From a virus, in the IMG/VR virus record IMGVR_UViG_3300008267_000419, positions 1 through 22,671 of that record: a DNA stretch of 22,671 nucleotides, one strand, 5' to 3'. Both the position numbers and the translations under genes were made by a program. Below are positions 2,723 to 22,100 of this stretch, in pieces. A model generated the notes under the pieces. That model did not search any database. It was not told the origin of the DNA and saw only the letters and a program-made list of their open reading frames with translations. Position 1 is the first letter of the stretch. Each line of letters begins with the position of its first letter.

Positions 2723-2911
2723 TTAATTGTTTAGTGGTTCTGCTACAACAGGTTCTGCGCCAGCAGCACCTTGTTGTTGACGTTGAGATAACTCTTGATT
2801 GAGAATTCTCAAATTGTTGTTTGCGACGTTAATCTTTATTAACTCATCATAAGCATATGCTTTTAATTCGTTGATATTGAATTGTGATAGGTTTACTTGA
2901 TTTTGTTCCAT
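2723..2911 (-). CDS. Small helical protein, paralogue B of a tandem pair
   Basis: This 62-residue protein is built like its downstream neighbour: a helical core (NELKAYAYDELIKINVANNN, then LRILNQELSQRQQQ) followed by a low-complexity Gly/Ala/Pro/Glu tail. It lies 19 bases upstream of the paralogue in the same direction and is probably co-transcribed with it. About half the core positions are identical, while tails and N termini differ, which indicates an old tandem duplication. The leader has AAAGTTA ~9 bases before the ATG, as in the paralogue, and no Shine-Dalgarno motif. Function is unknown. Confidence 0.75.
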   Translation of the reverse strand: MEQNQVNLSQFNINELKAYAYDELIKINVANNNLRILNQELSQRQQQGAAGAEPVVAEPLNN

Positions 2912-2934
2912 AGGTTATAACTTTATTTTGTTAG

Positions 2935-3564
2935 TTAGTTTGGTTGATTGACTGTCAAATAGGCAGTGTTGGATGGCATACTACCACCAGCATTAGATGC
3001 AATCACGCTATAATAAGTAGTGTCACTTACAGAAGCGCTCGTGATTGTATATGATGTGGAAGTTTCACCTGTGATAGCTGTGCTACTCTTGTACCATTGA
3101 TAGGTTAGTGGTAGGCTACCAGTTACTTCGACACTAAAGGTAAAATCATCACCGGCTGTAATTGTGCCACCAACTGGTTGTACAACGAATGTTGGAGGTA
3201 TTGGTGACCATGGTAGAGGAGGTGAAATTACTGGAGGATCAATTTGTGTATAAATTGCGTTTGAAGCAGCAGTTTCATAACTAGCTTTTTGTGTTGGACC
3301 CATACTTTCAAATGTCCAACTCAACACTTGTGCTTCAGTTAATTGGTTATATGGAGTAAATGAACTACCACTATGATACATTACACCGGTTGTACCATAT
3401 ACACGGCTGTTGTAGGTGCTTCCACTCAAACTGCCGGTTGCGACGGTCATATTACCTAGACAATCCCAATGGACTGTGAATACAACGTCTGTTTCTTGAT
3501 CATATTTTGGATAACAATCTAGGTTTGTTACTTTCCATGTAATTGTTGGTACGTTTTCGCTCAT
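2935..3564 (-). CDS. Two-domain virion-type protein with C-terminal Ig-like domain
   Basis: This 209-residue protein has three parts. Residues ~7-108 form a beta-rich domain (TITWKVTNLDCYPKY, then LTEAQVLSWTFESMG) of a kind I remember from many phage hypothetical proteins. Residues ~109-124 are a proline-rich linker (PPVISPPLPWSPIPP). Residues ~125-206 form an immunoglobulin-like domain, recognisable by FVVQP, T-x-x-G-D-x-x-x-F-S-V, YQWYK (W157) and the tyrosine corner DTTYYSV followed by ASNAGG. The canonical disulfide cysteines are replaced by hydrophobic residues, as is common in phage Ig domains. Ig-like domains on phage surfaces are thought to bind glycans weakly; that role here is inferred. 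It starts the leftward cluster with the two mini-proteins and is expressed from the 3565-3650 intergenic region. Confidence 0.8.
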   Translation of the reverse strand: MSENVPTITWKVTNLDCYPKYDQETDVVFTVHWDCLGNMTVATGSLSGSTYNSRVYGTTGVMYHSGSSFTPYNQLTEAQVLSWTFESMGPTQKASYETAASNAIYTQIDPPVISPPLPWSPIPPTFVVQPVGGTITAGDDFTFSVEVTGSLPLTYQWYKSSTAITGETSTSYTITSASVSDTTYYSVIASNAGGSMPSNTAYLTVNQPN

Positions 3565-3650
3565 AATATATTAATCTGTTTAACTAATAAATATAGTTTG
3601 AGTTGTACAAATTGTTAATTATATTTTAAACTATTATATGTATGTGTTGA
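3565..3650. promoter_or_regulatory. Divergent intergenic promoter region
   Basis: This 86-bp, ~85% A/T spacer separates a leftward gene (start 3564) from a rightward gene (start 3651), so promoters for both must lie here or very close. TAATAAATA (3585-3593, + strand) is one base from the T4-type late-promoter box TATAAATA and lies ~60 bases before the glycosyltransferase. The opposite strand reads TATATTTATT. Neither is proven; phage-encoded sigma factors are unknown here. Confidence 0.4.
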
Positions 3651-4292
3651 ATGAAAATATTGTTTTGTTTACCTGGTTCTGAATATAGTGGTAGGTTTTT
3701 GACTTGTTGGACAAATCTATTGATTCATTGTTTACAAAGAAACTATCAAATCAATGTAGCTCAGCGATCTCATGAGGATTGTTATAGTGTTAGAAATATG
3801 TGTTTGGGTGGTCCTAATCAAAAACCATTTGGTGGCAAGGTTGATTATGACTATATAATGTGGATAGATAGTGATATATTATTTACCCCACAACATTTGG
3901 AACAATTGTTGGATCATGATGTGGATATAATTGGTGGTGTATATCCAACTGAAGATACTAAGTACTATACGACTCTTCAATATTGGGATGAAGATTATTA
4001 TAGAAAGAACGGATGTTTTAAAATGATGAGTGTTCAGGAAGTTAACGATATGAAAAAACAATATGATACTTTTCCTGTGGTTGCAACTGGTTTTGGATTT
4101 ATGTTGGTTAAAAATGGTGTATTTGAAAACATGACATATCCATGGTTTAAACCTGAATTGTTTCGAGTTAAACGATTGAAATATTTTGCATCCGAAGATG
4201 TTAATTGGTGTATGGAAGCAAATAAGTTGGGATATAAGGTTATGATAGATCCCAACGTAGTTTTGCAACGAGAAGTTATCAAGATGGTATAA
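3651..4292 (+). CDS. GT-A fold glycosyltransferase (family 2-like)
   Basis: This 213-residue cytoplasmic protein lacks membrane segments. It has the features of phage GT-A glycosyltransferases: a nucleotide-binding N terminus (MKILFCLPG), a DxD-type metal/nucleotide-sugar motif D73-S-D75 in IMWIDSDILF, ATGFGFMLVK (145-154) in the acceptor region, and an acidic pair E182-D183 in SEDVNWCMEA that fits the catalytic-base position. The C terminus (IDPNVVLQREVIK) corresponds to the place where relatives often have an H-E-K motif, but here the histidine is replaced. The donor and acceptor are unknown; GDP-fucose from the nearby fcl is a possibility. It stands alone on the + strand, convergent with the fibre operon, overlapping the 3' end of the 90-residue gene by 14 bases. 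No Shine-Dalgarno motif precedes the ATG. Confidence 0.85.
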   Translation: MKILFCLPGSEYSGRFLTCWTNLLIHCLQRNYQINVAQRSHEDCYSVRNMCLGGPNQKPFGGKVDYDYIMWIDSDILFTPQHLEQLLDHDVDIIGGVYPTEDTKYYTTLQYWDEDYYRKNGCFKMMSVQEVNDMKKQYDTFPVVATGFGFMLVKNGVFENMTYPWFKPELFRVKRLKYFASEDVNWCMEANKLGYKVMIDPNVVLQREVIKMV

Positions 4293-4551
4293 AATAGCTA
4301 CCAACTACATTGTTTCTTATTTTTTGAAAATAATCAAGTAAACTTTGATTTCTATCTGTTAACTTTGAAAAAGCTAGATCACAAACTTCGGATTGAGTTT
4401 TACCACTTGCTTCTTCCAATGTAACTTGATGTTCCAGTGTACCTGAAGCGTTGGTGTTTGTATCTCTCACCAAAAATCCAACCGCAATTGAAGTATGAAA
4501 TTCAGGTGGGTAAAGTTCGTATCTACAAATTGTGTATTCTATATTATCCAT
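4279..4551 (-). CDS. Hypothetical 90-residue protein downstream of the giant fibre
   Basis: This is the last gene of the leftward fibre unit, starting 6 bases after the stop of the 3862-residue fibre. The N-terminal part looks beta-rich (EYTICRYELYPPEF, then AVGFLVRD); residues ~43-76 look helical (VTLEEASGKTQSEVCDLAFS). There is no signal peptide or membrane segment. Position and size would fit a fibre-assembly chaperone or small virion protein, but no sequence motif proves this. The stop codon lies inside the end of the convergent glycosyltransferase gene. Confidence 0.7.
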   Translation of the reverse strand: MDNIEYTICRYELYPPEFHTSIAVGFLVRDTNTNASGTLEHQVTLEEASGKTQSEVCDLAFSKLTDRNQSLLDYFQKIRNNVVGSYFIPS

Positions 4552-4557
4552 AAATTG

Positions 4558-7500
4558 TTAATTATATAATTGAATCCATTTTGTTGTTCCAGCAATAGAT
4601 ATTGGTAACCATCCATAGAATGTTTTACTATTAGATGTTGCGGATGTATTTATCGCACCATTATCCACACGAATTGCTGGATTTGTATTATCACCATTGA
4701 TGTGTAATCTGTTGGATGGATCTACCTTGATACCCAAACCAGTTGAACTCATACGAACCACATCATCGGCAGTAGCATTGGATGTATAAAAGGCTAGTAC
4801 GTTATCATCACTTTGTCTTAAATATATCCACCATTTTGTTGCTGCCGCGGTTTGAAATTGAATACCACATTGTCCGACAGCCGCAGATGTTCTATTTGCC
4901 AAGAAATATCTTGTGGTCAAGTCTGCGTTACTATCTCTGTAAGCAATTGTGCTTACGGTTGCGGCAGTTGCGGGATTGTTGAAACCGCTGATTGAAGCTG
5001 CTGTGCCTGTGACATTTATAGCCCAATTTCCACTTGCACCATTGCCTGTCAAACTAGGAGAATAACTATTGTAATTTGAACTATCCAACATTGTTCTCCA
5101 AGAACCAGCACTACCCCAGTTAACTCTTAGATACAATGGTGAAGTATTTCCATTACCTGCTACTAATTGATAACCATAATTATCTGTACCATCAGTATCA
5201 CCATTTGTATAGTGAAATGACTGTAAACCAACGAAATGTGTATATCCAGCACCGGGAGAATTACCTGGACTACCCCAGCTGTCGATAAATCCACATCCCC
5301 ATGTAACCATTGTATTGAAGTCTGTAGTTGACCATCCCATCATTCCTGTCCAATAATTGGTATCGGTTGTACTAACACTTCTTGGAGTTGCATTTTTATA
5401 AGTTAAACCAATTTGTTGTTTGAAATCTGCAACACCTTTGTAACGAACATATGCATCGTTTGAACAATATATTCTGTCGATACTTTCAGTATCAGGCATA
5501 TCACCTGATGTTGTATTAATCCAACCAGCTTGTATATAACCGTTACTATCGGTTCTTACTACTTTATTTGCTTCATTGTTTCTTCCGGTATGTACATCCA
5601 AACCATCTAACAAATCGGCATCAAGACCAGAACCAGATCCATCATTATTGTTGTTCCAGAATCTATTCCAAGTTCCAGGAGTTCCATTTGTGGTGGTTCT
5701 TGTATAAATGTCACCAAGATTTCCACCAGTCATTCTTACAGCAAGTGTGTTGCTATAATAAGTTACAGGATCACCATGACCCATACGAATAGCATTATAC
5801 CATTGTGTATCGGGATTTAAATTTGTATCTCCAGAAACTTGCCAATATTGTAATCTATTACCACCAACGTTTCCTGTATCTGAATTTACACATCCAGCGG
5901 ATGTAGCAGTTGTTGCTGATGTAGCAGTTGTTGCTGATGTAGCAGTTGCGGCGTTACCCGTTATGCTTCCGTTGATTGTATTTGAAACAGTCAATCCTGC
6001 AAATGAACAAGTATCTGAAGTTCTTACATTTTGGTTCATATTCCATGCGTAAGATGCATTAACAGAATCTAATATTGTAGCTTCTGTTCCTCCTCCATTA
6101 CTCCCTTTATGAATATAGCCGGTTCCAACAGACCATCTCATTTGCCATCCGATACCATTTCTATGAAATCCTACTTCGGTGCTATTTACCATCAAACTTA
6201 CACCAGATTCAAATTCAATACCATACCAACCATTTCTGGTCCCACCTATTTTCCAAGAACCATAACTGCCGTTATTAGCATAAAAAGTAGCACTATTTGC
6301 AGTACCAGTACAAGTACCAGCAGTAGTAGCAGTTGAAGCTAATGGCAAACCTATTGTATATGGTCCATCAACCGCTACGGAATTGTCTATATTACCAATT
6401 GTAACACCCCAAGTTCCTGCGTTCCAATCTATACTTCCAGGATTATTAAAGCCATTAGAAAACTCTGTTACATGAATTTGCGGATAAGACCAAGTTGTGG
6501 CATTTTCTCCAATCCAAATGCAACCAGATGTTCCATCGGTTCCATATCGTATTGGCAGTGCTATATTAGCATCAACACCCATTGCATATTGATATCTGTT
6601 GTATGCAGTGCTTGGATATAGATGACATCCACATTCAATTGTATATCCATTTCCTCTTGAACCATATTCATAAATTTTTATGGTCATTTTCCACATGCCA
6701 TGAACAGGCATTCCCGGTGGCATTTTAATTTTAATTGCTCCTGTGACCGAACTAGCCGTTGTTGTGTATGACGCTCCTTTTGGACGAGTTAATCCTACGT
6801 TAAATACGCCACCAGGATTTGTTTGAGCCGAAACATAATTTGCATATCCATTAATATTACCAGTAATAGTGTTTACAACGGTTAAGCCAAGTAGATTAGT
6901 AAGGCTACCTGGGTTTAAGTAGTAAGTATTATCACCATTTAAAAACAAATTGCCGTCTATAACCTTTCTAATGTCCCAATTAGCCCAAGCTGCATCTAAA
7001 AATCCGTAATCACCACCACCACTACCATATAATTGAAACGCAAATTGATCCGAAGCACCTCTTCCTAAAATACCAGCGTCAGTACCACTTGTACCTTTTA
7101 TCAACAAGTTTCTGTCGTTATATTTTTGGATAGTTAGGTTGGAACTAATTGTTAAACTTGCAAATGTAGGGCTATCACTGGTTCTAACATTTTGATTCAT
7201 ATTAGCTGCATATGAGTAGTTAGCACTATCCAATATACGAACCCAACTTGACCAATTTTGACAACAATCTCTTAATGATCTTGCATATATAGCTGGACCT
7301 GTTGTTGCGATCCAATCCATACTGATTTCCCAACCTTTACTACCATCAGTTACTTGAAGAGTATAATCATATGTAGTTGGTCTATTGGTGCCGGTACTAT
7401 AACCACTATAGTGACTTAAACCAGCTCTCTTTGTGGTTCTATCAATATCATAATTTAAGCCACTACCAAGACTTGCTACGAATGTTGATGAACCACCTGA

Positions 7501-10500
7501 GTTACCAGTGATATTACCAGTAATAGTATTTGAAACAGTTAAACCAACTAAATTACTTGTACCTGCTGGATCAACATAATAAGCACCATTATCTCTATCA
7601 TAGTATATAGTTGCTGCCATACTGCCAAAAACATCCAATTTTTGACCTGCTGATGTTGTGCCTATACCTACATTACCATCGGATTGTATACGTAATCTTT
7701 CAACACCATTTGTATAAAATCTTGTATTACCATGAGTGAAATTTGCGCTGTTTTTGGTCATTTGACCTATTTCAAGAGACCCTCCAGCTAATCCTGTTGT
7801 TGCTGGTGTATACGCAATTGCAATTTGTCTATCCCAATCCCAACTTCCACCTAAAATTAAAGTATTTGTAGCATTATTTCCAATCATCCACAAATTACCA
7901 TCATTATATCCTATCAAATCAAATCCATTATATCTAACACGTTCAAAACCCGGAGTCAATCTTACACTCACACTATTGCTACCAACTGCTCCCACATCCA
8001 ATTTATAAGCTGGAGTAGTATTAGCAATACCAACATTACCATCACTTTTAATTGTAACATGATCTGTTGCGCTACCGCCTGCTCTAAAATTAATATTTCT
8101 TGAAGTAGCTGAACAAATATATATTCCATCTTCACCAGTGTTGTGTGCAAATATTTTATTGGCACCATTAGCTAATCCACCAAAACCAACCGCAACATAT
8201 CTGCCTGTCCCTGATGTGCCATACGTACCATCATTTGATATTAATATAGGATTACCTACAGATGGAGTATAAGCAATTGTACCATTTACATCTAAAGTGT
8301 AGTTTGCTGTTTGCCCATTATTAATTGACAATCTCTTATTTGTTCCGTCAAACCAAGCAATATTTTCTCCTTTACCATTACCAACATTGAAATTTCTAAA
8401 TTGTGTTTGTCCATCATTATATCCACGGAAATTTATCCACATATCTGCAATACTATTAGCAAAATATGCAGAATTTAATGTGTTATTATTTGTTGGTGAT
8501 ACATAAATATAATCATTAAATATCGTTAGATTATTTATTGCAGTTCTAAATGTACCATTTACATCAAGTTTAGAACCAGGACTTGTGGTACCTATGCCAA
8601 CATTGCCGTTGGCTTTTATTACCACTTTTGTAGTAGGAGTATCTCTACCAGCATTAGCAGTTTTGAAATTTATTACACCATTATAATTGCCATCGTCACC
8701 ACAAGAAATAACTCCACCTATCCAATCATAATTAGTTCCAGATTGTCCTAATTTAAAATTGAATTCGGGTTGATATTCATATCTAGCAGATACTATTATT
8801 TTATTTGTTACAGCATCAAGAAAATTTCCAACTTCTAATTTATTACTTGGACTTGTTGTGCCTATACCAAGATTACCGTTATTATCTAACAATACTCTTA
8901 TTAAATTATTTGTTGCAAATGTAAGTGGAATATTTGCTGATGTGCCCAATGTAGCGTGATAACCAGCATATGGAGTAGATCCCCAGAACTGGCCAATGTT
9001 ATCCGACATTCCAATATAATATGCACCACCGGAGTTGTCTATTTGACCATATGTATAGCCAGTTGTCGCTCCTGTAAACCAAAGTACTCTACTATTATTA
9101 GAAGATGCAAGTCTTAATCTAGCAGATGGAGTAGATGAAGTACCTATGCTTATATCTCCCAAGAAATATCCACCACCGTTACCGTATAATAGAGTATTAT
9201 AAGTAGATCCATCATATATACCAAATGCATTAGTTGATGAATTAGCAACGTTTAATCTCAATCCGTAATCCCACCCAGTTTTATCAACTATAATACCCCA
9301 GTCAGAATTTGATCTATCAGAAACATATAAAACAGCATCGGTGTTACCAATTGTGCCTGGATTTGTATTTCTATAAAAAATTACTGATCCATTATTTACT
9401 CCACCGGCTATTAAAGAACCAACCACTTCTAACTTTGCCGTAGGAGATGACGTACCAATACCAACATTACCACCATCTCTTTGAATATATAAGTCTCTAA
9501 CTACACCAGCTGGTGTATAAGCTTGTATAACCGCACCATTATTTGTTGCGCCTCCGAATCTTAATTCACCAGTTGAACTACCAAGTCTAAAATGCCAAAC
9601 ATCGGTGTTGTTGTAAATAGTTAATGGAGAAGGAATGGTTGTTGTGCCTATGCCTAAATTACCACTACTATTTATGATTGCATAATTACTACTACCACCT
9701 CTGTTTCTGAAATAGTGAGTACTATTATCATAATAATTTGCAGGATCGCTGTTATTTCCTAGATACAATGCTGGATTACCTGCTGGTTCGTATATTCTAT
9801 TATAATTTCCAGAAAACCAAGCAATTGGAGAGCCAGCACTGGCTAGGATACCATTTACATCCAATTTATAAGCAGGAGTTGCAGACCCAATACCTACGTT
9901 ACCATTAGCTTTTAGAATAGTAAAATTTGTTGTAGCGGTTGTGTAGTTATAGACGTTGAAATTTTCTGTAGCATCACCTACATTCATACCTGCTGCCCAT
10001 CGATTGCTACCATTTGCTTGCCATACTATTTCTGAGTCACTGTTTGTACCATTAATATACAAATAAGCACCAGCTCTATTTATTATGATATTTCCATTGG
10101 TCCATAAATCTCCGGTAGATCTAAATGTTCCATTTACATCCAATTTATAAGCGGGTGCTGTAGAACCTATACCCACATTACCACCACTTAATATTGTAAA
10201 TAATGGTGTGCCTGAATGAATATGTTGAAATGCTTTTCCACTATCGGTATAAGTGTACATCGCCCCTGCTAATGCGCCATTGCTTGTATCAGAACTTGTA
10301 TTTTTAAATAAATAACCATTACTAGTACCATCATCCAATCGAATATATCCAAACGAACCACCACCATTTAATCTTATCCATGGATTGCTAGCTCTATAAA
10401 TATGAAGTGGTGCTGTAGCGGTAGATGTACCTATACCTACATTACCATCGGCTGCAAATTTAACAATATCTCCACTGTTTATTCTAAAGAAAATACCATT

Positions 10501-13500
10501 TGATGCGGTTGTATCGATGGCTGTTGCAGTTCCATAAGCTTCAAATCTCGCAGTATGATTATCATTTTGTGATATATATGTAACTCTATTTGCATTCTCA
10601 TAGATATGCAATTTAGTTGATGGACTTGTTGTACCTATACCCACACTGCCTATTGGTAAAGTAAATCCTAAACTTGATACACAAACGGTACTACTACCAT
10701 TGCCGGGATTGGTTTGACCAAGTGATCCAACATTTGTCCAAGTTACACCATCTACAATTTCAACTATATAGTGTGAACGATTTGTAAAAGCTGGTAATGA
10801 TAAATACAAATCATATGCAGTAGCACTTACTCCAGCAGCATTACCAACCCATTTTGGTGCTGGATCAGATGTGGTATATCCTTTTGTATAATACCAGCTA
10901 TTACCAGCAAATCCATTAGCATCAACACTACTTGCATTGGATGTTTTGAAGAAAATATCTAGATAATAATCTTGACTATTTAGAGCATTGAATCCGGCGT
11001 GTATATAGGCTCTTATATGAGCTGTATAACCATTTTGTGGAATTGTTAATGTACCAAGTTTTACCCATTGACCAGTACCACTTGTATCTACTACAGCATA
11101 ACTTTGACCTTGAATTACACCACGAACATCTAATCTTGTTGCTGGACTCTCAGTACCAATACCAACATTTAAACTCGGATCAAACGACATGATTACTACT
11201 TCAGAATTATTTGGAGCAGGATTTCCAGAACCTCTATAAAAATAAAATCTATTTGAATTAGCCGCGGCTCTTGAACTTAATGACCAATAAACTCCGTTCC
11301 AACCATCTTGATTTGCTGCAGCAGTATGTCCGAATAAAATATCCGATGGATAAGATGTTCCATTTGCATCCAATCTTACTGTCGCTCTATTTGCTAAAGA
11401 AAAATCTCTACCAATACGTACTCCAAGCGTATCTACTTTAGCAGTTGGACTCGATGTACCAATACCCAAATTACCATTAGCATCAATAATTGCAGATTGA
11501 GTGGTTCCTCTGTAAAATGCTATTTTACCAGTACCCCATGTATTCACTTCCATCTGGCCTGAAGAAACGCTCATACCTCCAATTGATGAAGCGTCTTCAT
11601 AAACTTTTAATTTAACATTTGCGCCTGGAGTATTGCTAAATGTTCCTCCCAAACTTAGTTTTTCTGTAGCAGAAGTTGAGGTGCTTGTAAGATTTCCTAT
11701 TTGAAATTTTGATGCGGGACTTGTTGTGCCTATGCCTAAATTACCATCACTATTAATTACCGCATAAATGGTATTTCCGGCTCTATTTCTAAAATAATGA
11801 GATGCGTTATTGTAATAATTTGTTGTATCATTTGCGTTACCAAGAAGCAATGCGATATTTCCACCTGGCTCGTATATTCTATTATAATTTCCATTCCATT
11901 CAGCAAACGCAACTCCTCCACCCAATCCGATTATGCCATTTACATCCAATCTATAATTCGGACTGGAAGATCCAATTCCTACACTGCCACCACTTGTCAT
12001 TACAAAGCTATTACCAAAATTAGATTTGTAACTTAATATTGCTAAATTATTTCCTGTACCTGTAGCATCTGCATCTACCCAATCCCAACCATCGGCATAA
12101 GCATCATTATAATTGCTACTATACATGCTTTCCACATATAATTTAGGCCAATAGCCGGGGCCTACTAATACAATACAAACTTTGGGTGTACCTGAAGAAT
12201 CCCAATCTTCAGCAGATAACTTAACCGTTGGAGCATAACTACCAGCTGAACTAATTGTTGGGTTATAAAAAGTACTCAAATAATAATGCCAACAAATCAT
12301 CAAACTAGTACTTTCTACGCCACCATATCTGAAACCTTTGATATTAATGGTGAAATCTGCTGCTCCAGATGCAAAAGGAATTTTTGTTCTGATCTTTATG
12401 AAGTTTGGTGTAACTCCACTATTGATATCCAAACCAATTAGTGTAAGTTTACTGCCATCACCAAAACTAGCTTCTCCATCAACAGCTAATTTTATTGATG
12501 GACTACTGGTACCTATACCAACGTTACCACCTGTAGTAATACGCATCTTTTCACTACCATTATATTGAAAAGATGTATCTCCGTTAAGGCTGTTAATATT
12601 AAATAATCCATTATATGCACCAATTCTTCCAAGAGATATGGTATTACTTGTATCTCCAAAACCAATCCACGCTCCACTTGCATTTCCATATATGCTAGTT
12701 CTATAAGAACTTTCTCCCGCCATTGCATATCCAGCAACTTCTAATCTTTGAGTTGGACTTGTTGTGCCTATACCAACATTGGATGTGGCTAATAAAATTG
12801 CAGTTTTAAATGTACCATCTGCGGCTGGTATGCCACTAGCATCATATTCACCCCAATTTAATATACCATTTGCATCCATCCAAACACTCTTAGAGGCTCT
12901 ATTTGCCCAATGAAAATTGAGATTTGGAGCATACTTATCAGCCAATTGAGTATTTGATACCTGATCTCTTTCTCGTATGCTTATTGGACTATTTGCCCAA
13001 TCTTCACCATTTGTCAGATTTGTATAAGATACCAACATTCTGGTGCTTAAACCACCATTGAAAGCTAAATCACCATTTACTGTTAATTTATAACCAGTAA
13101 CTGTTGTGCCTATGCCAATATTACCACCATCTCTTTGTATATAAAGATCTCTAACGGTTGAGCTACCAGGAACAAATGATTGTATAACAGCACCGCTACT
13201 TGTTTGTCCACCTATTCTTAATTCTCCAGCTGCACTACCAAATCTTGCGTGCCATACATCTGCATTATTATAAACATTTAAAGTAAATGTTCCTGATGTG
13301 GTACCTATACCAAGATTGCCACCACTGGTTATACGCATTCTTTCACTATTACCTGCACCAAATGCTAATCCAGCACTACCACCTGTGTTCATTAAAGTGG
13401 TTAAATTAGTTGCAGTGGTAATTTGTAAATCACTATCAGAACCATTTGTTTGAACATAACCAGTACCATTAACTCCATAATTTACATACAAATTTCCTCT

Positions 13501-16146
13501 AACATCAAGTTTTGACAAAGGACTTGTTGTACCTATACCAACATTACCATCGTATAAAATACGCATTCTTTCTTGTAAACTACCATTGTAATTTGTAAAG
13601 ACAAGATCGGTTGCTGCATTGCCTGTGTTTCTTAATACTGCGCTTATTATACTTGTTGCTGAATAATTGCCAGCTACTATAAAAGACATTGCTGACTCAT
13701 TACTAATTGTAGCTGTTGCGGTATTTGCTAATGTCAAAGTATGTACTCTGCCAGCGGCACTAGAACCACCAATTCTTGCAATAACACTATTATCATTAAC
13801 GACCGCTGAGGAATTTGTTCCAACCTGCAACGTAGCAGTTGGACTACTTGTGCCTATACCTACATTACCATCAGATGATATTCTAACTCTTTCAGCATCA
13901 TTAAATGAGAATTGTAATGAATTTGCAAATGTTGCACTTGCAGGCACTCTTACTTGCCATCCACCACCATAACTTTGTAAATCCACACCCGTATAAGCGG
14001 CAGCACCACTATTTTGGTTGTTTATTCTTACATAAGTTGCACTATTTGCTGTATTTAATACTTCTAGTTTATGTGCAGGCGATGTAGTACCTATACCGAC
14101 ACTACCACCATTCAAAAGGGTCATCAAAGTGCTGGTATCAGCCGCATTAACAAAATTAAGCATTGTTGTGCCTGTATAAATGTAATTATGCGTTCCACCA
14201 CTACCCGCGAATAATCTTTGACTACCTATTGAATGATATACGTTGGCGGTAAACACCGTTGCGCCACTATTTACTACTTTAAATCTACTTACCCAGTTTG
14301 CATGAGATACTGATCCACCTGTATAATAACCTATATCTGTCAATGGATTGGTTCCGCCACCATAATCACCAACCAATCTTAAACCAGCGGTTGCTTGATC
14401 CATACCTATGCCAGTATTTGAACCATAAGTATTTATGAATAATGGATTATTTGGAACCGTAGTACCAAATGATAAAGCAATTGTGGTGTTGGTACCTGCT
14501 ATATCTAATTTAGCGGCCGGACTTGTTGAACCTATACCAACATTTCCAGTAGTCGCAATTGTCATGAATTCAGTTGTACCACTATTACTGAAGAATTTTA
14601 AGTTGCCACCCGCACCACCATAACCGATGTACATACCATCATTCAGTGATGCACCTCTCAATACTCTAATATTTCCATAAATGTCGGCTGCGTTACCCGC
14701 ATTTAAATCAAAGTTGGTGGTTAATACCGTTGTACCTCTTACAGATACAGGTCCATATATGTCTAATTTAGTAGCAGGACTAGTTGTGCCTACACCCAAA
14801 CTACCAGCTTCAGTCAAAACCATTCTTTCTGCGGAATTTGTATAATTATACCATCTTAAATTATCATCGCCGGTTTCACGTAGTCCAACAAACCACTTAC
14901 TATTATTGGCCGTATAATAACCCAAACCAGTCCATACATTTGTAGCACTTCTTTTTAATACAAAACTAAAATCATTATCAATAGTTGAACGTACAGCACC
15001 AACAACATCTATTTTATAACTAGGACTTGTGGTACCTATGCCTAAATTACCAGCAGATGTAAAATAGAATTTACTTGTTACTGTTTCTGAACCCAATGTA
15101 GCTGCGTTACCAGTTAGAATGTTTAAATTGCCTGAGTCATTTCTGATATGAATTGGATATGATGTGGTAGCACTGGCTCCATCTGGTCTATACAAACGAA
15201 TTCTAGGATTATTGCTACCATCTGTATCTACCACAAATGCTCCGGCAGAAACCCAACTTGAATCAGGACGAACATCAAATCTGCCAACTGGACTTTGCGT
15301 GCCAATGCCAACATTGCCTGTATTTACTACATATAGACCTCTATTTGTTGTACCTTCAAATCTGTTTGCTCCAACCGGAAATTGATAAGCATTGTTACAT
15401 AATAATCCAGCAATAGTTCCACCTGTACCAGTTGTGCTTTGTTGTGTAAATGTACAATTGGTTTTGATAGAAACATAAACAATCATGTTTCCACATGAAT
15501 CACCTAGCGATCTCAATCTCAATTCTATATTTGCAAAATTTGCGCTTAATCTAGCATCTACAGTAACTCCAGTTAAAGCGCCTGTGTAGGAGATATTATT
15601 TATAGTTGGTAATTGTACCCAATCGGTTGTTGTTCCGACATAATATGGACTAACCAATTCATATTTTATGTATTCGATTGTACCGCAATCGTGATGATAA
15701 ATTTCAATAGTGGCGTGATCTGATTTACCAGTTGGAGTTAAATAACCCAATAAAGTTGTACTACCGGCTGCACTTGCCACTGTTCTATTGAGAGCATAAA
15801 ATATTTCACGGGATGTTGCGTCGTTGTTTGGATCGGTTAATGATGTTCCAATTACAGCTAGTTTGGCACCAGGACTGGTGGTGCCGATACCAACGTTTGT
15901 ACCATTGTCATAAATCAAGCTATTTGCTATGGTACTATTGCCTGTAAATTTGCTTAAATAGTTGGATGTTGGTTGTGTTGATGTTACGAATGCTCCACCA
16001 CCACCTGTTGATATGGAACTGGCACTTAATGGACCTGTGACAAGCAATGTGTTGCCTGTTAATCTTAAAGTGTTGGTTACATTTTCACCTTTGGTTGTGA
16101 AAAAATCAATTTTACCAATCGCTGGATTTATTACGATATCTGCCAT
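4558..16146 (-). CDS. Giant repeat-built tail fibre (3862 residues)
   Basis: A single intact reading frame of 11.6 kb encodes a very large fibre-like protein. The N terminus (~1-80) is unique, starts MADIVINPAIGKIDFFTTKG and has no signal peptide. From ~80 to ~2850 come about 27 copies of the degenerate module GNVGIGTTSPxxKLDV, separated by mostly 70-130-residue inserts rich in Gly, Ser, Thr and Asn. Four longer inserts (~95-256, ~1222-1395, ~1672-1835, ~3102-3266) look like beta-sandwich modules. From ~2850 on the architecture changes to DNGAYYVDPAGTSNL and YYLNPGSLTNLLGL elements, pyocin-knob-like segments (~2900-2990, ~3450-3510), ADLLDGLD and a tip ending in TTKWIQLYN. This organisation is typical of trimeric phage tail fibres that bind host surface glycans. 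It is preceded by a second giant fibre 41 bases upstream. No Shine-Dalgarno motif is visible. The fibre call is strong; the receptor is unknown. Confidence 0.9.
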   Translation of the reverse strand: MADIVINPAIGKIDFFTTKGENVTNTLRLTGNTLLVTGPLSASSISTGGGGAFVTSTQPTSNYLSKFTGNSTIANSLIYDNGTNVGIGTTSPGAKLAVIGTSLTDPNNDATSREIFYALNRTVASAAGSTTLLGYLTPTGKSDHATIEIYHHDCGTIEYIKYELVSPYYVGTTTDWVQLPTINNISYTGALTGVTVDARLSANFANIELRLRSLGDSCGNMIVYVSIKTNCTFTQQSTTGTGGTIAGLLCNNAYQFPVGANRFEGTTNRGLYVVNTGNVGIGTQSPVGRFDVRPDSSWVSAGAFVVDTDGSNNPRIRLYRPDGASATTSYPIHIRNDSGNLNILTGNAATLGSETVTSKFYFTSAGNLGIGTTSPSYKIDVVGAVRSTIDNDFSFVLKRSATNVWTGLGYYTANNSKWFVGLRETGDDNLRWYNYTNSAERMVLTEAGSLGVGTTSPATKLDIYGPVSVRGTTVLTTNFDLNAGNAADIYGNIRVLRGASLNDGMYIGYGGAGGNLKFFSNSGTTEFMTIATTGNVGIGSTSPAAKLDIAGTNTTIALSFGTTVPNNPLFINTYGSNTGIGMDQATAGLRLVGDYGGGTNPLTDIGYYTGGSVSHANWVSRFKVVNSGATVFTANVYHSIGSQRLFAGSGGTHNYIYTGTTMLNFVNAADTSTLMTLLNGGSVGIGTTSPAHKLEVLNTANSATYVRINNQNSGAAAYTGVDLQSYGGGWQVRVPASATFANSLQFSFNDAERVRISSDGNVGIGTSSPTATLQVGTNSSAVVNDNSVIARIGGSSAAGRVHTLTLANTATATISNESAMSFIVAGNYSATSIISAVLRNTGNAATDLVFTNYNGSLQERMRILYDGNVGIGTTSPLSKLDVRGNLYVNYGVNGTGYVQTNGSDSDLQITTATNLTTLMNTGGSAGLAFGAGNSERMRITSGGNLGIGTTSGTFTLNVYNNADVWHARFGSAAGELRIGGQTSSGAVIQSFVPGSSTVRDLYIQRDGGNIGIGTTVTGYKLTVNGDLAFNGGLSTRMLVSYTNLTNGEDWANSPISIRERDQVSNTQLADKYAPNLNFHWANRASKSVWMDANGILNWGEYDASGIPAADGTFKTAILLATSNVGIGTTSPTQRLEVAGYAMAGESSYRTSIYGNASGAWIGFGDTSNTISLGRIGAYNGLFNINSLNGDTSFQYNGSEKMRITTGGNVGIGTSSPSIKLAVDGEASFGDGSKLTLIGLDINSGVTPNFIKIRTKIPFASGAADFTINIKGFRYGGVESTSLMICWHYYLSTFYNPTISSAGSYAPTVKLSAEDWDSSGTPKVCIVLVGPGYWPKLYVESMYSSNYNDAYADGWDWVDADATGTGNNLAILSYKSNFGNSFVMTSGGSVGIGSSSPNYRLDVNGIIGLGGGVAFAEWNGNYNRIYEPGGNIALLLGNANDTTNYYNNASHYFRNRAGNTIYAVINSDGNLGIGTTSPASKFQIGNLTSTSTSATEKLSLGGTFSNTPGANVKLKVYEDASSIGGMSVSSGQMEVNTWGTGKIAFYRGTTQSAIIDANGNLGIGTSSPTAKVDTLGVRIGRDFSLANRATVRLDANGTSYPSDILFGHTAAANQDGWNGVYWSLSSRAAANSNRFYFYRGSGNPAPNNSEVVIMSFDPSLNVGIGTESPATRLDVRGVIQGQSYAVVDTSGTGQWVKLGTLTIPQNGYTAHIRAYIHAGFNALNSQDYYLDIFFKTSNASSVDANGFAGNSWYYTKGYTTSDPAPKWVGNAAGVSATAYDLYLSLPAFTNRSHYIVEIVDGVTWTNVGSLGQTNPGNGSSTVCVSSLGFTLPIGSVGIGTTSPSTKLHIYENANRVTYISQNDNHTARFEAYGTATAIDTTASNGIFFRINSGDIVKFAADGNVGIGTSTATAPLHIYRASNPWIRLNGGGSFGYIRLDDGTSNGYLFKNTSSDTSNGALAGAMYTYTDSGKAFQHIHSGTPLFTILSGGNVGIGSTAPAYKLDVNGTFRSTGDLWTNGNIIINRAGAYLYINGTNSDSEIVWQANGSNRWAAGMNVGDATENFNVYNYTTATTNFTILKANGNVGIGSATPAYKLDVNGILASAGSPIAWFSGNYNRIYEPAGNPALYLGNNSDPANYYDNSTHYFRNRGGSSNYAIINSSGNLGIGTTTIPSPLTIYNNTDVWHFRLGSSTGELRFGGATNNGAVIQAYTPAGVVRDLYIQRDGGNVGIGTSSPTAKLEVVGSLIAGGVNNGSVIFYRNTNPGTIGNTDAVLYVSDRSNSDWGIIVDKTGWDYGLRLNVANSSTNAFGIYDGSTYNTLLYGNGGGYFLGDISIGTSSTPSARLRLASSNNSRVLWFTGATTGYTYGQIDNSGGAYYIGMSDNIGQFWGSTPYAGYHATLGTSANIPLTFATNNLIRVLLDNNGNLGIGTTSPSNKLEVGNFLDAVTNKIIVSARYEYQPEFNFKLGQSGTNYDWIGGVISCGDDGNYNGVINFKTANAGRDTPTTKVVIKANGNVGIGTTSPGSKLDVNGTFRTAINNLTIFNDYIYVSPTNNNTLNSAYFANSIADMWINFRGYNDGQTQFRNFNVGNGKGENIAWFDGTNKRLSINNGQTANYTLDVNGTIAYTPSVGNPILISNDGTYGTSGTGRYVAVGFGGLANGANKIFAHNTGEDGIYICSATSRNINFRAGGSATDHVTIKSDGNVGIANTTPAYKLDVGAVGSNSVSVRLTPGFERVRYNGFDLIGYNDGNLWMIGNNATNTLILGGSWDWDRQIAIAYTPATTGLAGGSLEIGQMTKNSANFTHGNTRFYTNGVERLRIQSDGNVGIGTTSAGQKLDVFGSMAATIYYDRDNGAYYVDPAGTSNLVGLTVSNTITGNITGNSGGSSTFVASLGSGLNYDIDRTTKRAGLSHYSGYSTGTNRPTTYDYTLQVTDGSKGWEISMDWIATTGPAIYARSLRDCCQNWSSWVRILDSANYSYAANMNQNVRTSDSPTFASLTISSNLTIQKYNDRNLLIKGTSGTDAGILGRGASDQFAFQLYGSGGGDYGFLDAAWANWDIRKVIDGNLFLNGDNTYYLNPGSLTNLLGLTVVNTITGNINGYANYVSAQTNPGGVFNVGLTRPKGASYTTTASSVTGAIKIKMPPGMPVHGMWKMTIKIYEYGSRGNGYTIECGCHLYPSTAYNRYQYAMGVDANIALPIRYGTDGTSGCIWIGENATTWSYPQIHVTEFSNGFNNPGSIDWNAGTWGVTIGNIDNSVAVDGPYTIGLPLASTATTAGTCTGTANSATFYANNGSYGSWKIGGTRNGWYGIEFESGVSLMVNSTEVGFHRNGIGWQMRWSVGTGYIHKGSNGGGTEATILDSVNASYAWNMNQNVRTSDTCSFAGLTVSNTINGSITGNAATATSATTATSATTATSAGCVNSDTGNVGGNRLQYWQVSGDTNLNPDTQWYNAIRMGHGDPVTYYSNTLAVRMTGGNLGDIYTRTTTNGTPGTWNRFWNNNNDGSGSGLDADLLDGLDVHTGRNNEANKVVRTDSNGYIQAGWINTTSGDMPDTESIDRIYCSNDAYVRYKGVADFKQQIGLTYKNATPRSVSTTDTNYWTGMMGWSTTDFNTMVTWGCGFIDSWGSPGNSPGAGYTHFVGLQSFHYTNGDTDGTDNYGYQLVAGNGNTSPLYLRVNWGSAGSWRTMLDSSNYNSYSPSLTGNGASGNWAINVTGTAASISGFNNPATAATVSTIAYRDSNADLTTRYFLANRTSAAVGQCGIQFQTAAATKWWIYLRQSDDNVLAFYTSNATADDVVRMSSTGLGIKVDPSNRLHINGDNTNPAIRVDNGAINTSATSNSKTFYGWLPISIAGTTKWIQLYN
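5900..5948 (-). repeat. Short tandem repeat, 18-bp unit, in the fibre gene
   Basis: GATGTAGCAGTTGTTGCT (+ strand) occurs twice in direct tandem (5900-5917, 5918-5935), followed by a 13-base partial copy. In the protein it encodes an Ala-Thr-Ser linker (ATSATTATSATTATS) just before the pyocin-knob-like segment. It is in frame, so unit gain or loss would only change linker length. Confidence 0.85.
9450..9855 (-). repeat. Duplicated fibre segment, fused copy of two distant modules
   Basis: Two modules are adjacent here: one with NYNRIYEP and HYFRNR (~9640-9855) and one with YNNTDVWHFRLG and RDLYIQRDGG (~9450-9630). Each has a partner elsewhere in the same gene, at ~11710-11940 and ~13105-13290. 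A 24-base stretch is identical between 9788-9811 and 11870-11893. The rest has diverged at DNA level while the proteins remain clearly alike. Confidence 0.8.
11710..11940 (-). repeat. Partner copy of the NYNRIYEP module
   Basis: This encodes NGNYNRIYEPGGNIALLLGN and SHYFRNRAGN, aligning with GNYNRIYEPAGNPALYLGN and THYFRNRGGS at ~9640-9855. It shares an exact 24-base match (11870-11893). It is followed by an ordinary GIGTTSP module with different downstream sequence, so only this module was copied. Confidence 0.8.
13105..13290 (-). repeat. Partner copy of the DVWHARFG/RDLYIQRDGG module
   Basis: This encodes YNNADVWHARFG, AGELRIGGQ, GAVIQS and RDLYIQRDGGNIGIGT, aligning across its whole length with the module at ~9450-9630. 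The flanking modules differ, which points to single-module duplication or exchange. Confidence 0.8.
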
Positions 16147-16187
16147 ATGATTATAAATATAACATTTGTGACACTAACCAAGACTAA
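16147..16187 (-). promoter_or_regulatory. Leader between the two fibre genes
   Basis: The 41-base spacer upstream of the 3862-residue fibre reads, on the coding strand, TTATATTTATAATCAT just before the ATG, with no purine-rich ribosome site. No hairpin terminator for the upstream fibre gene is seen, so the two are probably co-transcribed, possibly with an extra AT-rich promoter here. A TATAAATA box exists only on the opposite strand. Confidence 0.35.
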
Positions 16188-19100
16188 TTATGTTTCTACT
16201 TGCAATTCTGGTACATCACATCTTGTTGCGGTAAAATCCCAGAAAAATTCATAGTTTTTATAACTTTCCAACATAGATTTATCATATTTGACGGTGAAAT
16301 AATTATTTTCTACAGATATTTCATCAACATAAATTACTTTACCACACTTAATTGGGGTAATTTGAATGTTTACACTATCTGACATAACCAATTTGCAAAT
16401 ATAATCAGGTAAATTTACAACGCATTTACCACCAACCAATGTATCTTTACCTGTTAATCTTACACCATGATATGGACTTTCGAGACTACCATATACCAAC
16501 TTTTTGCCTGGTTTGGTAGGATGATCAATTTTGAAACTCTTGGTTGAAGCAGCAAAACTACCATTTACTTCCAACTTATAAGCTGGTGCAGTTGTTCCAA
16601 TACCTACGTTACCACCGCCCAATATAGTTAATCTTTCGTTGGATGTACTCTTACTTGCGCCTGTTCTTGTATGAAAATGTATCGAAGCTGCATCATCTGC
16701 ATAAGTTGTGGACAAATGAACATCACCTATCGTATTTGAATACCAAATCTCAAATCCTTCAGCAGACATATTATTGCCTTGACCCGTCATTTGTAACAAT
16801 GCATCATATGATACATTTGCAGGAGTCAATCTTGCAATTACATCCGATGCACCAGCTTCATATACATGCAATTTTGTACTTGGTCCAGTTGTTCCAACAC
16901 CTACGTTACCACTTCCAGAAATAAATAATTGAGCCGCCGTGGTATCTCCATTTGCTGAGAGTCTAATATTGCTACCTCCTGCATATCCGGTTTTTATATT
17001 TAAATCTAAATCCGATCCATGTGTAGCTGAATTATAATAACCATACCAACCTTTAAATGTTCCTGCCGCGGTTGTCAATCCCAAATGAGCTTGTGATCCT
17101 TTGATATTAATCGTACCAACCGATGCTACACCTGTACCTACTACTTGTAACATTGTTGGTGAACTTGTGGTGCCTATACCCACACTGCCACCATCCGCTT
17201 TGATAGACATACGAGTGGTCATTGTTCCCGCTACATTTTGTCTAAAATAGATGTCACCAAATACTTGACCTGTACTAGTAGGATAAGTATTATCAATATA
17301 AGATACAGCGTTATTTGGATTATAAAGCAAATGCAAACCATGTGTTTCAGAATTGTTATAACTTATTTTTATTCCTTGATCACCAGTAGAAGCATTATTT
17401 ATTCTGACAAAAGGATTGGTACCTTGTACGTGTAACAATGTGTTTGGACTTGTTGTGCCTATACCAATATTACCAGTACCATTTTGAATAGTTAATCTAT
17501 AAGTACTATCGAAGAAATAAAATTGATTATTATTTGTACCATTTCCACCATTATTTGTTCCTACTTGCCAATCTCCATTCAAACTTACAAATCTTATGTC
17601 CTGTTCACTCGAACTGCCATTACCTATTCTTATGTCACCCCGTACATCTAAGAGATAACCGGGACTACTTGTTCCAATACCAACATTACCATCAGTAGCA
17701 ATTCTCATTCTTTCACTGCCACCTGTACTTATAGCGATTGGTACATATCCACCACTATAAAATGTTGAAGAAATTGCAATTAAACTTGTAGTAGGATCAA
17801 TTTGTAAAATTCTTGTACCAGTTGCATCTGTAAATCTACCAACTCCATAAACTTCAAACTTTGTAGCAGGACTATTTGTACCAATACCAACACCTGTAGA
17901 ATTTAAAGTCATCGTGGTACCATATGTCAAATCAAGTCTACTATTAGTATAATAAATTAATCTAGCATCATAATCATCAGTACCCGAATTACCTAAATCA
18001 ATATAAGCACCACTCGCACCTATTATTTGTAATTGAGCATAACTATCTGGATAGTTGAAACCCATTGCTCCAACTTTGCCTAATTGATATCTACTGCTAC
18101 CACCAGTTGTACTTGGATCACTAATTAGGAATGGCCAATTACTATCTCTATTTGCATTTAGTGTGATTGAACCAGTTACATGCAAACTGCCTGTTACTCT
18201 TGTTACTGATGTGGTACCACTACCTACTTTTACATCGCCAACAACATCTAACTTAGCAACAGGAGCAGTAGTACCTATACCCACATTGCCACTACTAACA
18301 ATTTCTATTGCGCCAGTTGCACCACTTAAATAACCACTATGTACTATTTGAAGATTATCATTGCTTGTGTTCCATCTAAAACCACCCCATTGACCTGCGC
18401 TTGTACTATCACCCAACAAAATTCTTTCGTTGGTAGCACCAAATGCCCAAATTTCACCATTGTTTACATGTAGTAGTGTCTGAGGACTGCTCGTACCAAT
18501 ACCAAGATTACCATTGGTATCCAATCTCATCTTTTCACTAGTAGTTACTGCACTACCAATAGCAACCGTTTGTACACCACCTGTATACCATTTATGATTT
18601 GCACCATCTTGTGTATATGCTGATCTATAAACATTAACACCAGTTGAACTTAAAAATGCGCCTGTACCGGATGTAGATGGTGTTACACCATATCCTAACA
18701 TTGGACCACCACTACTATATTCTGTACCTAATACTGTTAAACTACCATTAGTATAATAACCAGCAATTATTGTGGTACCACTAGTTGATACTCCTGTACC
18801 GGCAGTTATAAATCCACTTCTTACATCAAGAAGACTTATTGGTGATGTGGTACCAATACCAACATTTCCATTAGATGCAAAATATACAGCGTTTGTTGTA
18901 CCGGCTGGATGAAATGCAAATCCACCATTGCTGGTGTATAAATTCATAGAATCTGCACCACCCCAACTTGTACTGCTTCTATTTTTGAAGAATTGTGCGT
19001 TACCTGTACTTGTTGTCCAAAGAAGATTTGTAAATAATGTATTATTTGTACTACCTAAAATTAATCCAAAACTAGTTTGATTGTTATAAAATCTAGCTAC

Positions 19101-22100
19101 ATCTTGATTTCCATCATAAAGATCAAATTTATAAGCAGGACTACTAGTGCCTATACCAACATTACCACTCTTATTAATAACCATGTTCAAGTCCCAACCT
19201 GAACCATTATAATCATAAAATGCTATTTTACCAGCATCGGCAGAAGCATTATCTGATCTTCCAATTATATGAACTTGGCCTGGGTATGTAGCATGATCCT
19301 TACCCCACAAATACATACTTGGTTGTGTACTATCTGTGGTATGAGTTATTGCGGTAACACCTGTAGTAGATGCTTCACCAAATACACTATTTAACTTTAC
19401 GTTACCAACAACATGCAATACTTGAGATGGACTTGTGGTACCTATACCTACATTACCACTGCTATCTACTCTAACTCTTTCAGAAGAATTTGTTGAGATT
19501 GTGAGAGAACCTGCTTCTGATACAAATAATTGTAGTTGGCCTGTTCCTTTATGTTCTAATCTACTATTTGAGTTTGCGCCACTATCATAACGAATCAATC
19601 TTAAACCATAATCAGTATATGTAGCATCACCAATTAAATCTAAATAAGAATTACCGTTACCACTTCTACCACTTCCAACTTCTATTCTTGCATCTGAGGT
19701 TGTTGCGGTTGTTACTAAAAACACATCTCCAACTCTGGCTGTACCACTTACATCTAACTTATAAGCAGGACTTGTTGTACCTATACCTACATTACCACCA
19801 CCATCAATCCGCATTCTTTCAGTATAACTTCCGTTATTCCAAGTAAATGATCCTGTTCCTCTTGTATAATAGCCAGTATTTAAATCTTTACCTACACTTG
19901 CTCTATCAATTGTTTCTATATAACAATTTGACGAACCAACTCCAAATTCAAATCCTCCACCAGCACTATATACATGTAATCTTGTTGCGGGACTTGTTGT
20001 ACCTATACCAACATTACCTGATGAATCTATAGTTAATCTTCTATATCCTCCGCTATCTGCTTCTCCGTTTGATCCTCCTGATGTTGTCCACAAGTGAAGT
20101 TTACCACCATAACTTCCATTACCTGCTGATGTTTGTTTTTCTGCTGATATTGTAGCCCATTGATAAGGAGAAACTGCGTTTCCACTATAACCTATAAATT
20201 CTACTGCGCCTGAATTTGTTTCAGAAGTATTTGTATTTCTTAATTTGAGATTTATAGTTCCAGGACCATAAGTGCCCATTGTTGAAGATACAGCAATATC
20301 TAATTTTCCACTAGGACTGCTTGTTCCTATACCAACATTACCGCCGTTTGGATTCAACAATAATGGATAATTATCAGCTAAGCTAGTTTCATCTGTAGAT
20401 TGTAACCAAGCTCCAGCACCTCCGCCTCTCATACCAATATCTAACACTGCATTATCAGTGGTATTACTCAATCTTACTATACCACCTTGAACGGTACTTG
20501 AAGTAGCAGGATTACCTACAACACCGTCTATGTGAAATTTCTGAACCGGATTACTTGTACCTATACCTACATTACCATCAGCAGCTACTCTAACTCTTTC
20601 TGTGTTACTTATTATGAATTTAACAGGATATGGACCAATTGCACTGCCTAATGTCATGCTGCCATCACTATCATCGTATCTTATTTCTTGTATTTTTGTA
20701 CCACTACTATTTTTAAATTGAATTGAACCAGTGGTCACCCCAGTCATCTTTAATGCCATGTTACCACCAAACATTTCAAACTTAGTAGCAGGACTGCTTG
20801 TACCAATACCAATATTACCACTGGTTAATATAGTCAATAAATCAGTACCAGATCCAAAGTCACCTTTTTGGAAACTAAATGCTTTGGCTGATGAAGGAAA
20901 AATATTATTAAAGTATGTATCACCCACACTTGAATCGTATGTGAGTCTAAAACCTTCACCTGTAGGATTGTTGTTATCGGTTAAAAGAATAGCTGCATCA
21001 TTTGAACTATTAGTATTATCTATTCTTAATGTGGTAGTAGCAACAGAACTTTGTAAATGTAAAAGTGTGCCAGGACTACTTGTACCAATACCAACATTAC
21101 CCATTAATATTGCGGCGGGTACACTTGATGAACCTGTTATATGTAATTTAGCTAATGGACTACTTGTGCCTATACCAACGTTGCCATTGGTATCGATTGT
21201 CATTCTGGTACTTCCATTGGTTTCAAATGCAAGTGCCGATGCATCATTTGTACCAAGTGTAGCTGTTGTTCCAAAGCTATTGCCACCTTGTTTAAAATAT
21301 GAAGATAATTGTGGTATAGATCCACTAAAACTACCTGTAAAATTAGTAGCCCACACATTGCCAACTACTCTCAACTTAGCATCTGGACTGGTTGATCCGA
21401 TACCTACGTTGCCTGTAGAATCAATTCTGAATTTTTCAGAAGTATAAATGTTAAATGTAATTGGTGCACCGTCTTCTGTTTGGGTTGTAAATCCACCTGT
21501 ACCACGATATAATATCAAACCCAATCCATTCTGGCCAGAATTTCTTATTAATCGTAATCCATATGTAGTATATACAGTATCAGAAACTAAATTAATATAC
21601 GATGGTCCGTCACTAGGTCTTTGATATCCTATAATTAATGATGAATCTTGTGGACTAACGCTTCTAATATAAATGGTTTCTATAAACTTTGCTGTACCTT
21701 CTACTTCTAACCGACTGACAGTCGGTATCGTACCTATACCAACCAATCCTCCAGCTGTTATTCTAACCTTTTCACTATTATTTACTGATAGTCCAATTGG
21801 ATAATTATTGACCGTACCAAAGTAAGCGACGTTGTTAAATGGATTTATTTGTATTACAGTTGTACCATCACTTATAGCAAATTTAGTGGTTGGATTTGTG
21901 GTACCAATACCAACATTACCATTGATATCAATACGCATTCTTTCTTGGTTACGTAAAAAAGGACCAGAACCTACATTGAATGCCATGTAATCATTACCAA
22001 GAATAGCGGTGGTAATACTATGTTTCATTACACCAGCACTTGCAAAACCATAACCAACTATATCAGTACCACTTACACTTGGATTATCTATAACAATAGG

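Follow-up and report, generated by a model that had tools for sequence, protein, structure and literature searches.

A giant single-chain tail fibre, probably of a T4-like phage, with an array of capping-loop modules that appear to be exchanged at their motifs

The giant gene that fills half of this environmental viral record is real, well explained and extreme in length. We consider it likely that it encodes a side tail fibre of a T4-like phage made from a single polypeptide, in which a trimeric rod of modules would be followed by knobs and a tip, and in which cassettes bounded by a recurring motif would be exchanged. The window, that is, the whole 22,671-base stretch of DNA that was analyzed, is an entire IMG/VR record, and the virus it comes from is probably larger. 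The most interesting addition made here is the apparent motif-bounded traffic of modules between adjacent giant fibre genes.

Results

Features of the window, with residue numbers referring to the giant fibre, are as follows.

16188..22670 (-), upstream fibre gene of at least 2,160 aa, running off the record; 22 capping-loop motifs
4558-16146 (-), giant fibre gene, 3,862 residues
15898..16146 (-), N-terminal region, residues 1-83; 82-100% shared with nine contigs
7612..15897 (-), array of 26 capping-loop motifs, residues 84-2845; from a motif profile scan and PHROG and PDB MAT matches
13087..13896 (-), modelled representative array segment, residues 751-1020; AlphaFold2 and Foldseek
5647..7611 (-), knob/linker zone with a second repeat type, residues 2846-3500; homologous blocks in other fibres
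5900..5948 (-), 18-bp tandem repeat, 2.7 copies, coding for a SATTATSATTATSA linker (residue ~3404)
4942..5646 (-), LDADLLDG...NYNSYSPSLTGNGASGNWAINVTG knob domain, residues 3501-3735; a relative in phage DSL-LC03
4561..4941 (-), C-terminal end, residues 3736-3862; degenerate capping loop at 3802 and terminal beta hairpin GWLPISIAGTTKWIQLYN
4279..4551 (-), 90-aa ORF directly downstream of the giant fibre; no detectable family
2935-3564 (-), DUF7936 and Ig-like protein (PF25590, PF13927; Hoc-like PHROGs)
492-1223, 1527-2453 and 3651-4292 (+), nucleotidyltransferase-like, GDP-sugar epimerase and glycosyltransferase-like genes

A preliminary description, made from the sequence, had pointed to an uninterrupted 11.6-kb frame of 3,862 residues covering half of the window, and this was confirmed: the frame has an ATG start and no internal stop, and it takes up 51% of the record. 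From base composition, an open frame of 3,871 codons would arise by chance with log10 P = -132, and the remaining five frames hold 183 to 428 stops each; the frame is thus not a chance one. GC content by codon position was taken in bins whose size is not divisible by three, so that three-base periodicity can be read from them and phase cannot. Wherever relatives allow a test, the giant fibre is under purifying selection, with dN/dS of 0.02 to 0.29 in 12 of 12 tested pairs.

The zones proposed earlier stood up well, as residues 1-83, 84-2845, 2846-3735 and 3736-3862, but the N terminus is not unique, as had been claimed; the first 92 residues are 82 to 100% identical in nine IMG/VR contigs whose arrays and C termini differ. 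The N-terminal sequence starts MADIVINPAIGKIDFF and closes with a NYLSKFTG..STIANSLIYDNG leader. Its conservation (dN/dS of 0.07 for the region of residues 1-83, compared with the related contig L010) is consistent with a probable virion-attachment end, and these residues would probably fasten the fibre to the particle.

The array that follows is built on the motif GNVGIGTTSPxxKLDV. A profile built from the family picked out 26 high-scoring copies, which begin at residues 84, 278, 367, 449, 535, 682, 761, 868, 944, 1009, 1123, 1208, 1388, 1469, 1559, 1660, 1834, 1902, 1990, 2083, 2163, 2227, 2425, 2515, 2704 and 2825. Successive motifs are 64 to 198 aa apart. With a weakly scoring, degenerate 27th copy at residue 3802, this agrees with the earlier count of about 27 modules. 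Beyond the array, a second type of repeat reads YYVDPAGTSNLVGLTV..NTITGN, plus a variant, with YYVDPAGTSNLVGLTVSNTITGN at residues 2856 and 3075 and MNQNVRTSD occurring twice, at 2986 and 3373. Blocks homologous to residues 2846-3500 are present in the fibres of contigs L097, L098 and L074; no match to this stretch was found in Pfam or PDB. The knob domain (3501-3735) is 57% identical to part of the 3,161-aa fibre of DSL-LC03 and has weaker relatives in several contigs. For the last ~100 residues (beyond ~3760), no relative at close range was found in the viral collection. The structure model of the C terminus was poor (pLDDT 50.9), too poor for a fold search.

Several lines of comparison connect the array to tail fibres and to the solved MAT fibres of Bdellovibrio. 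Two PHROG families of tail fiber proteins match it, PHROG 9942 with E = 2e-72 and PHROG 18345 with E = 2.3e-66. A profile of a 270-residue array segment, made from 76 relatives, matched five Bdellovibrio MAT fibre sequences with a best E value of 5.3e-30 (8OND at 5e-30, 8OML at 1e-16, and 8OJN, 8OL4 and 8ON4), and single-sequence searches also matched MAT fibres. The AlphaFold2 monomer of residues 751-1020 is all-beta, with a mean pLDDT of 68.7 and about 85 or more around the motifs. With this model, Foldseek ranked Bdellovibrio MAT fibres at all of positions 1 to 15 in PDB (best E = 1.7e-5). At E <= 1e-3 it also returned 199 viral proteins, with several tail fibres among those that carry names. 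TM-scores to MAT chains are low (0.2 to 0.5), as expected when one chain of an intertwined trimer is modelled by itself, and we therefore infer trimerization of the array from its homology to MAT fibres. The capping loop of MAT proteins, with the consensus V-G-G/N-pi-X-X-P-X-X-X-L, closes trimeric beta-helix modules, and diverse MAT tips serve glycan recognition (PMC10769870). Compared by reading, the 26 copies and the degenerate one agree with this consensus. Residues 84-2845 would probably assemble as a homotrimer into a rod with about 25 beta-helix modules, each closed by a MAT-type capping loop, and residues 2846-3862 would provide knob domains and a terminal tip, with module surfaces and knobs perhaps binding host surface sugars.

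How long such a rod might be can be estimated from the rise per residue of MAT fibres, solved or modelled, reported as 142 Å for 370 residues, 95 Å for 334, 60 Å for 135 and ~550 Å for ~782 (PMC10769870). These figures give the giant fibre an estimated length of ~108 to 270 nm; the lower estimates, 108 to 171 nm, come from crystal structures, and 270 nm would be reached if all residues rose as in the Bd3182 full-length model. The T4 long fibre measures ~145 nm. The idea of an extremely long or heavily branched appendage, put forward in the preliminary description, draws on the 3,862 residues in one chain and on the upper estimate, but we regard it as unlikely: the overall range (~110 to 270 nm) overlaps the T4 fibre, the crystal-structure values lie within its reach, there is no sign of branching, and the knob zones lie in line along the sequence. 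As an appendage it may be unremarkable, and the unusual feature is its construction from one chain.

A chain of this size could also be matured by proteolysis into shorter pieces, so that the virion would contain no 3,862-residue fibre. Some related fibres do carry the self-cleaving S74 chaperone, including the L010 ortholog (Pfam PF13884, 6.5e-11). However, the C termini of the orthologs are of different kinds, with S74 in L010, another end in L011, L012 and L014, and a third kind in the giant fibre, in whose last 1,020 residues no PF13884 was found at E <= 1. S74 removes only the C-terminal chaperone, and no other protease domain was seen, making this route distinctly improbable. We favor a full-length fibre whose tip would do without the S74 chaperone.

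An assembly artefact, with a shorter true fibre whose array was inflated or chimerically joined through repeats, was one case that the preliminary description named as able to overturn its observation, and the observation holds. Motif copies do share up to 29 to 31 nt of exact identity, the gene is the longest among its orthologs, and a scan with exact probes at 8701 and 5281 turned up no other contig covering the C-terminal two thirds, so the exact length of the fibre rests on one assembly. Nor did a near-identity DNA search among phage records match the window. Against this, the longest exact repeat within the gene is 31 nt, inside a short tandem stretch, and most are below 25 nt, shorter than an ordinary read; the gene is without long exact repeats able to mislead an assembler. 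The modules are diverged, not copies, and a single frame runs across 11.6 kb with no frameshift. An independent contig is 100% identical across 14343-20070 (5.7 kb), which covers residues 1 to ~600 together with the boundary to the upstream gene, and orthologs with 23 motifs arise independently in L010 and L012, from other metagenomes. We judge the artefact very unlikely.

A bacterial surface adhesin (MAT-like or of Bacteroidota) in bacterial DNA misclassified as viral is extremely improbable: the closest relatives among solved structures are surface fibres of bacteria and the window holds glycan genes rather than phage hallmarks, but the MADIVINPAIGKIDFF N terminus reads as having no signal peptide, the best-matching families are phage tail fibres, neighbouring genes match PHROGs that include Hoc-like Ig proteins and a nucleotide-sugar epimerase of phages, and the N terminus recurs in nine IMG/VR contigs, one of them 86 kb long with T4-type replication and assembly genes. 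By reading rather than by profile, the N terminus, MADIVINPAIGKIDFFTTKGENVTNT, has no hydrophobic stretch that could serve as a signal, nor is the conserved N-terminal domain of MAT proteins (~130 aa) evident, the first capping loop coming already at residue 84. Because a signal peptide, a defining feature of MAT proteins, is missing, we class the protein among phage tail fibres that use MAT-type modules and outside the MAT proteins proper.

The relatives place the gene further. In contigs G005 and L097, a tail-fibre-assembly gene (phrog_4912) lies downstream of the fibre; in G005, the 86-kb relative, it comes two genes after it (5e-16). This gene was not detected in the window, where the 90-aa ORF occupies about the same place and could be a replacement chaperone. 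Taken together, the PHROG families, the conserved N terminus with a variable remainder and the assembly gene of the relatives identify the giant gene, as judged by homology, as a tail fibre; fibre identity, module array and trimeric fold, as first described, are all supported. The window contains no head, tail-tube or replication hallmark gene, so the T4-like placement rests on relatives, among them G005 with its T4-type clamp loader and NrdB.

Orthologs of 1,679, 1,843, 2,357 and 2,501 aa, with 15 to 23 motifs each, form a set whose length varies with array size and of which the giant fibre is the longest member. Because orthologs already reach 1,679 to 2,501 residues, it is extreme in length and not a new kind of fibre. 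The earlier statement that it is far beyond ordinary tail fibres is right for textbook phages but not for the environmental contigs compared, among which fibres of 1,679 to 2,920 aa are common, or for DSL-LC03, which has an annotated one of 3,161 aa. The contigs L011, L012, L014 and L017 have three fibre-like genes between their two giant fibre genes, which are missing in the window; by reading, these appear LamG-like, and one matches a virion structural PHROG.

In the window, only 41 bases separate the upstream fibre gene from the giant one. The upstream protein begins within a ~130-residue Gly-Ser-Ser/Gly-Thr-Ser collagen-like stretch (PF01391, E = 7.8e-17) and has its own C-terminal domain, ending in KSFKIDHPTKPGKKLVYGSLE..., and module types in common with relatives of the downstream, giant fibre. 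The 3,862-aa protein has no collagen-like Gly-X-Y run. Among the other neighbours, a protein similar to the DUF7936/Ig-like one adjoins the fibre in L010, and tandem small ORFs (66 and 62 aa) at 2503-2703 and 2723-2911 (-) look like paralogs. G005 appears to carry many glycosyltransferase- or methyltransferase-like genes at 33 to 74 kb, named by reading.

Modules were compared by the variable part between motifs, using 141 modules from nine fibres, which fell into 33 shared types and 44 singletons. Their order is not collinear; types R, F, D, E and G are arranged otherwise in L012 and L014 than in the giant fibre. Nor do they keep to one gene. Two modules of the upstream fibre have close counterparts in orthologs of the downstream one, J in L010 (97% identity) and Y in L012 (94%), and conversely the V module of the downstream fibre recurs with 76% identity in L014's fibre of the upstream type. 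Where blocks of DNA similarity break off, a motif is at most 45 nt away in 32 of 36 cases, compared to 11.1 ± 2.8 expected for randomly placed blocks (0 of 5,000 trials reached the observed count); since the motif's own conservation attracts alignment ends, this test shows where homology stops and not the mechanism of recombination. The pattern suggests that the unit of exchange is a single module, with homology ending at the motif, and modules appear to have been traded between neighbouring fibre genes and related phages. Synonymous codon likeness in both fibre genes is 0.525 at the motif and 0.452 ± 0.013 elsewhere. This uniformity was considered as a sign of recombination and set aside, since common descent of the repeat copies explains it equally well.

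Discussion

We imagine that the gene gains and loses motif-bounded cassettes and swaps them internally, with the fibre gene next to it and with phages related to its own, presumably by recombination, and that this would change both the length of the fibre and its binding. Such trading probably varies what the phage sticks to. This gives a concrete, testable picture in which neighbouring genes may swap cassettes and thereby alter fibre length and specificity. Frequent swapping would be relevant to how aquatic phages keep pace with the changing surface sugars of their hosts; were it not frequent, the giant fibre would be no more than a long example of a widespread type of fibre. One can envision a stronger version, about which we are rather doubtful, in which the two genes form a paired cassette array, the capping-loop DNA serves as the crossover point, and modules move between both genes and between co-infecting phages fast enough to generate receptor-binding diversity. 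If true, this would be a recombination-driven counterpart of reverse-transcriptase-based diversification.

A hint of the host comes from start sites in G005, where Shine-Dalgarno sequences are at 2%, equal to background, positions -3 to -5 are A-rich, and T is found at -1 in 74%. Bacteroidota naturally lack Shine-Dalgarno sequences (PMC6847099), and the start sites suggest a host of that type. For the clamp loader and NrdB of G005, the closest matches come from an uncultured phage and from cyanophages and reach only 46 to 50%. A cyanobacterial host was considered and not adopted, since start sites that are A-rich and without Shine-Dalgarno sequences fit Bacteroidota. An S21 gene, looked for on the question of host, was not found.

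Among known systems, the T4 long tail fibre (gp34-gp37) is likewise trimeric and extended, with host recognition at its tip. It is made from four gene products, whereas the giant fibre would be made from one, and no sequence match was found between them. The profiles of PHROG 9942 and PHROG 18345 match significantly along the array, in 9 to 11 stretches each; they have 1,178 and 956 positions, and the giant fibre is 3 to 4 times longer, with different ends.

The orthologs in L010, L011, L012/L017 and L014 have the same module family and an N terminus 82 to 92% identical to that of the giant fibre, and all but L010 have, like the window, a second giant fibre gene nearby. They differ in being shorter (1,679 to 2,501 aa), in module order and content, and in their C termini. 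Synechococcus phage DSL-LC03 (OR003938), a metagenome-assembled genome (PMC10611076), also has adjacent giant fibre genes, WJZ47902.1 and WJZ47903.1, of 2,241 and 3,161 aa, the latter with a C terminus that is S74-like by reading. As a direct parent type it was rejected, because it shares only the one knob domain with the giant fibre and its arrays hold only one or two GIGTTSP motifs.

The closest solved structures are the MAT fibres of Bdellovibrio bacteriovorus, Bd2133 (8OND), Bd1334 (8OML), Bd3182 (8OJN) and Bd2439 (8OL4) (PMC10769870). In common with the giant fibre are the class of capping-loop motif, homology across the array, a chain of beta-helix modules and exchangeable tips. Unlike them, the giant fibre is phage encoded, is without a signal peptide or an evident MAT N-terminal domain, has a different tip, and has 26 motifs in 3,862 aa, compared to MAT proteins of typically ~1,000 aa. 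The beta-helix design with capping loops, known structurally from a predatory bacterium, thus appears extended in environmental phages to 26 modules in one chain. The tail fibres and spikes with which phages bind receptors are known to keep exchanging protein fragments (Smug et al. 2023, PMC10684548). What may set the giant fibre apart from such shuffling is its unit, a single capping-loop-bounded module in long arrays, crossing between two adjacent genes.
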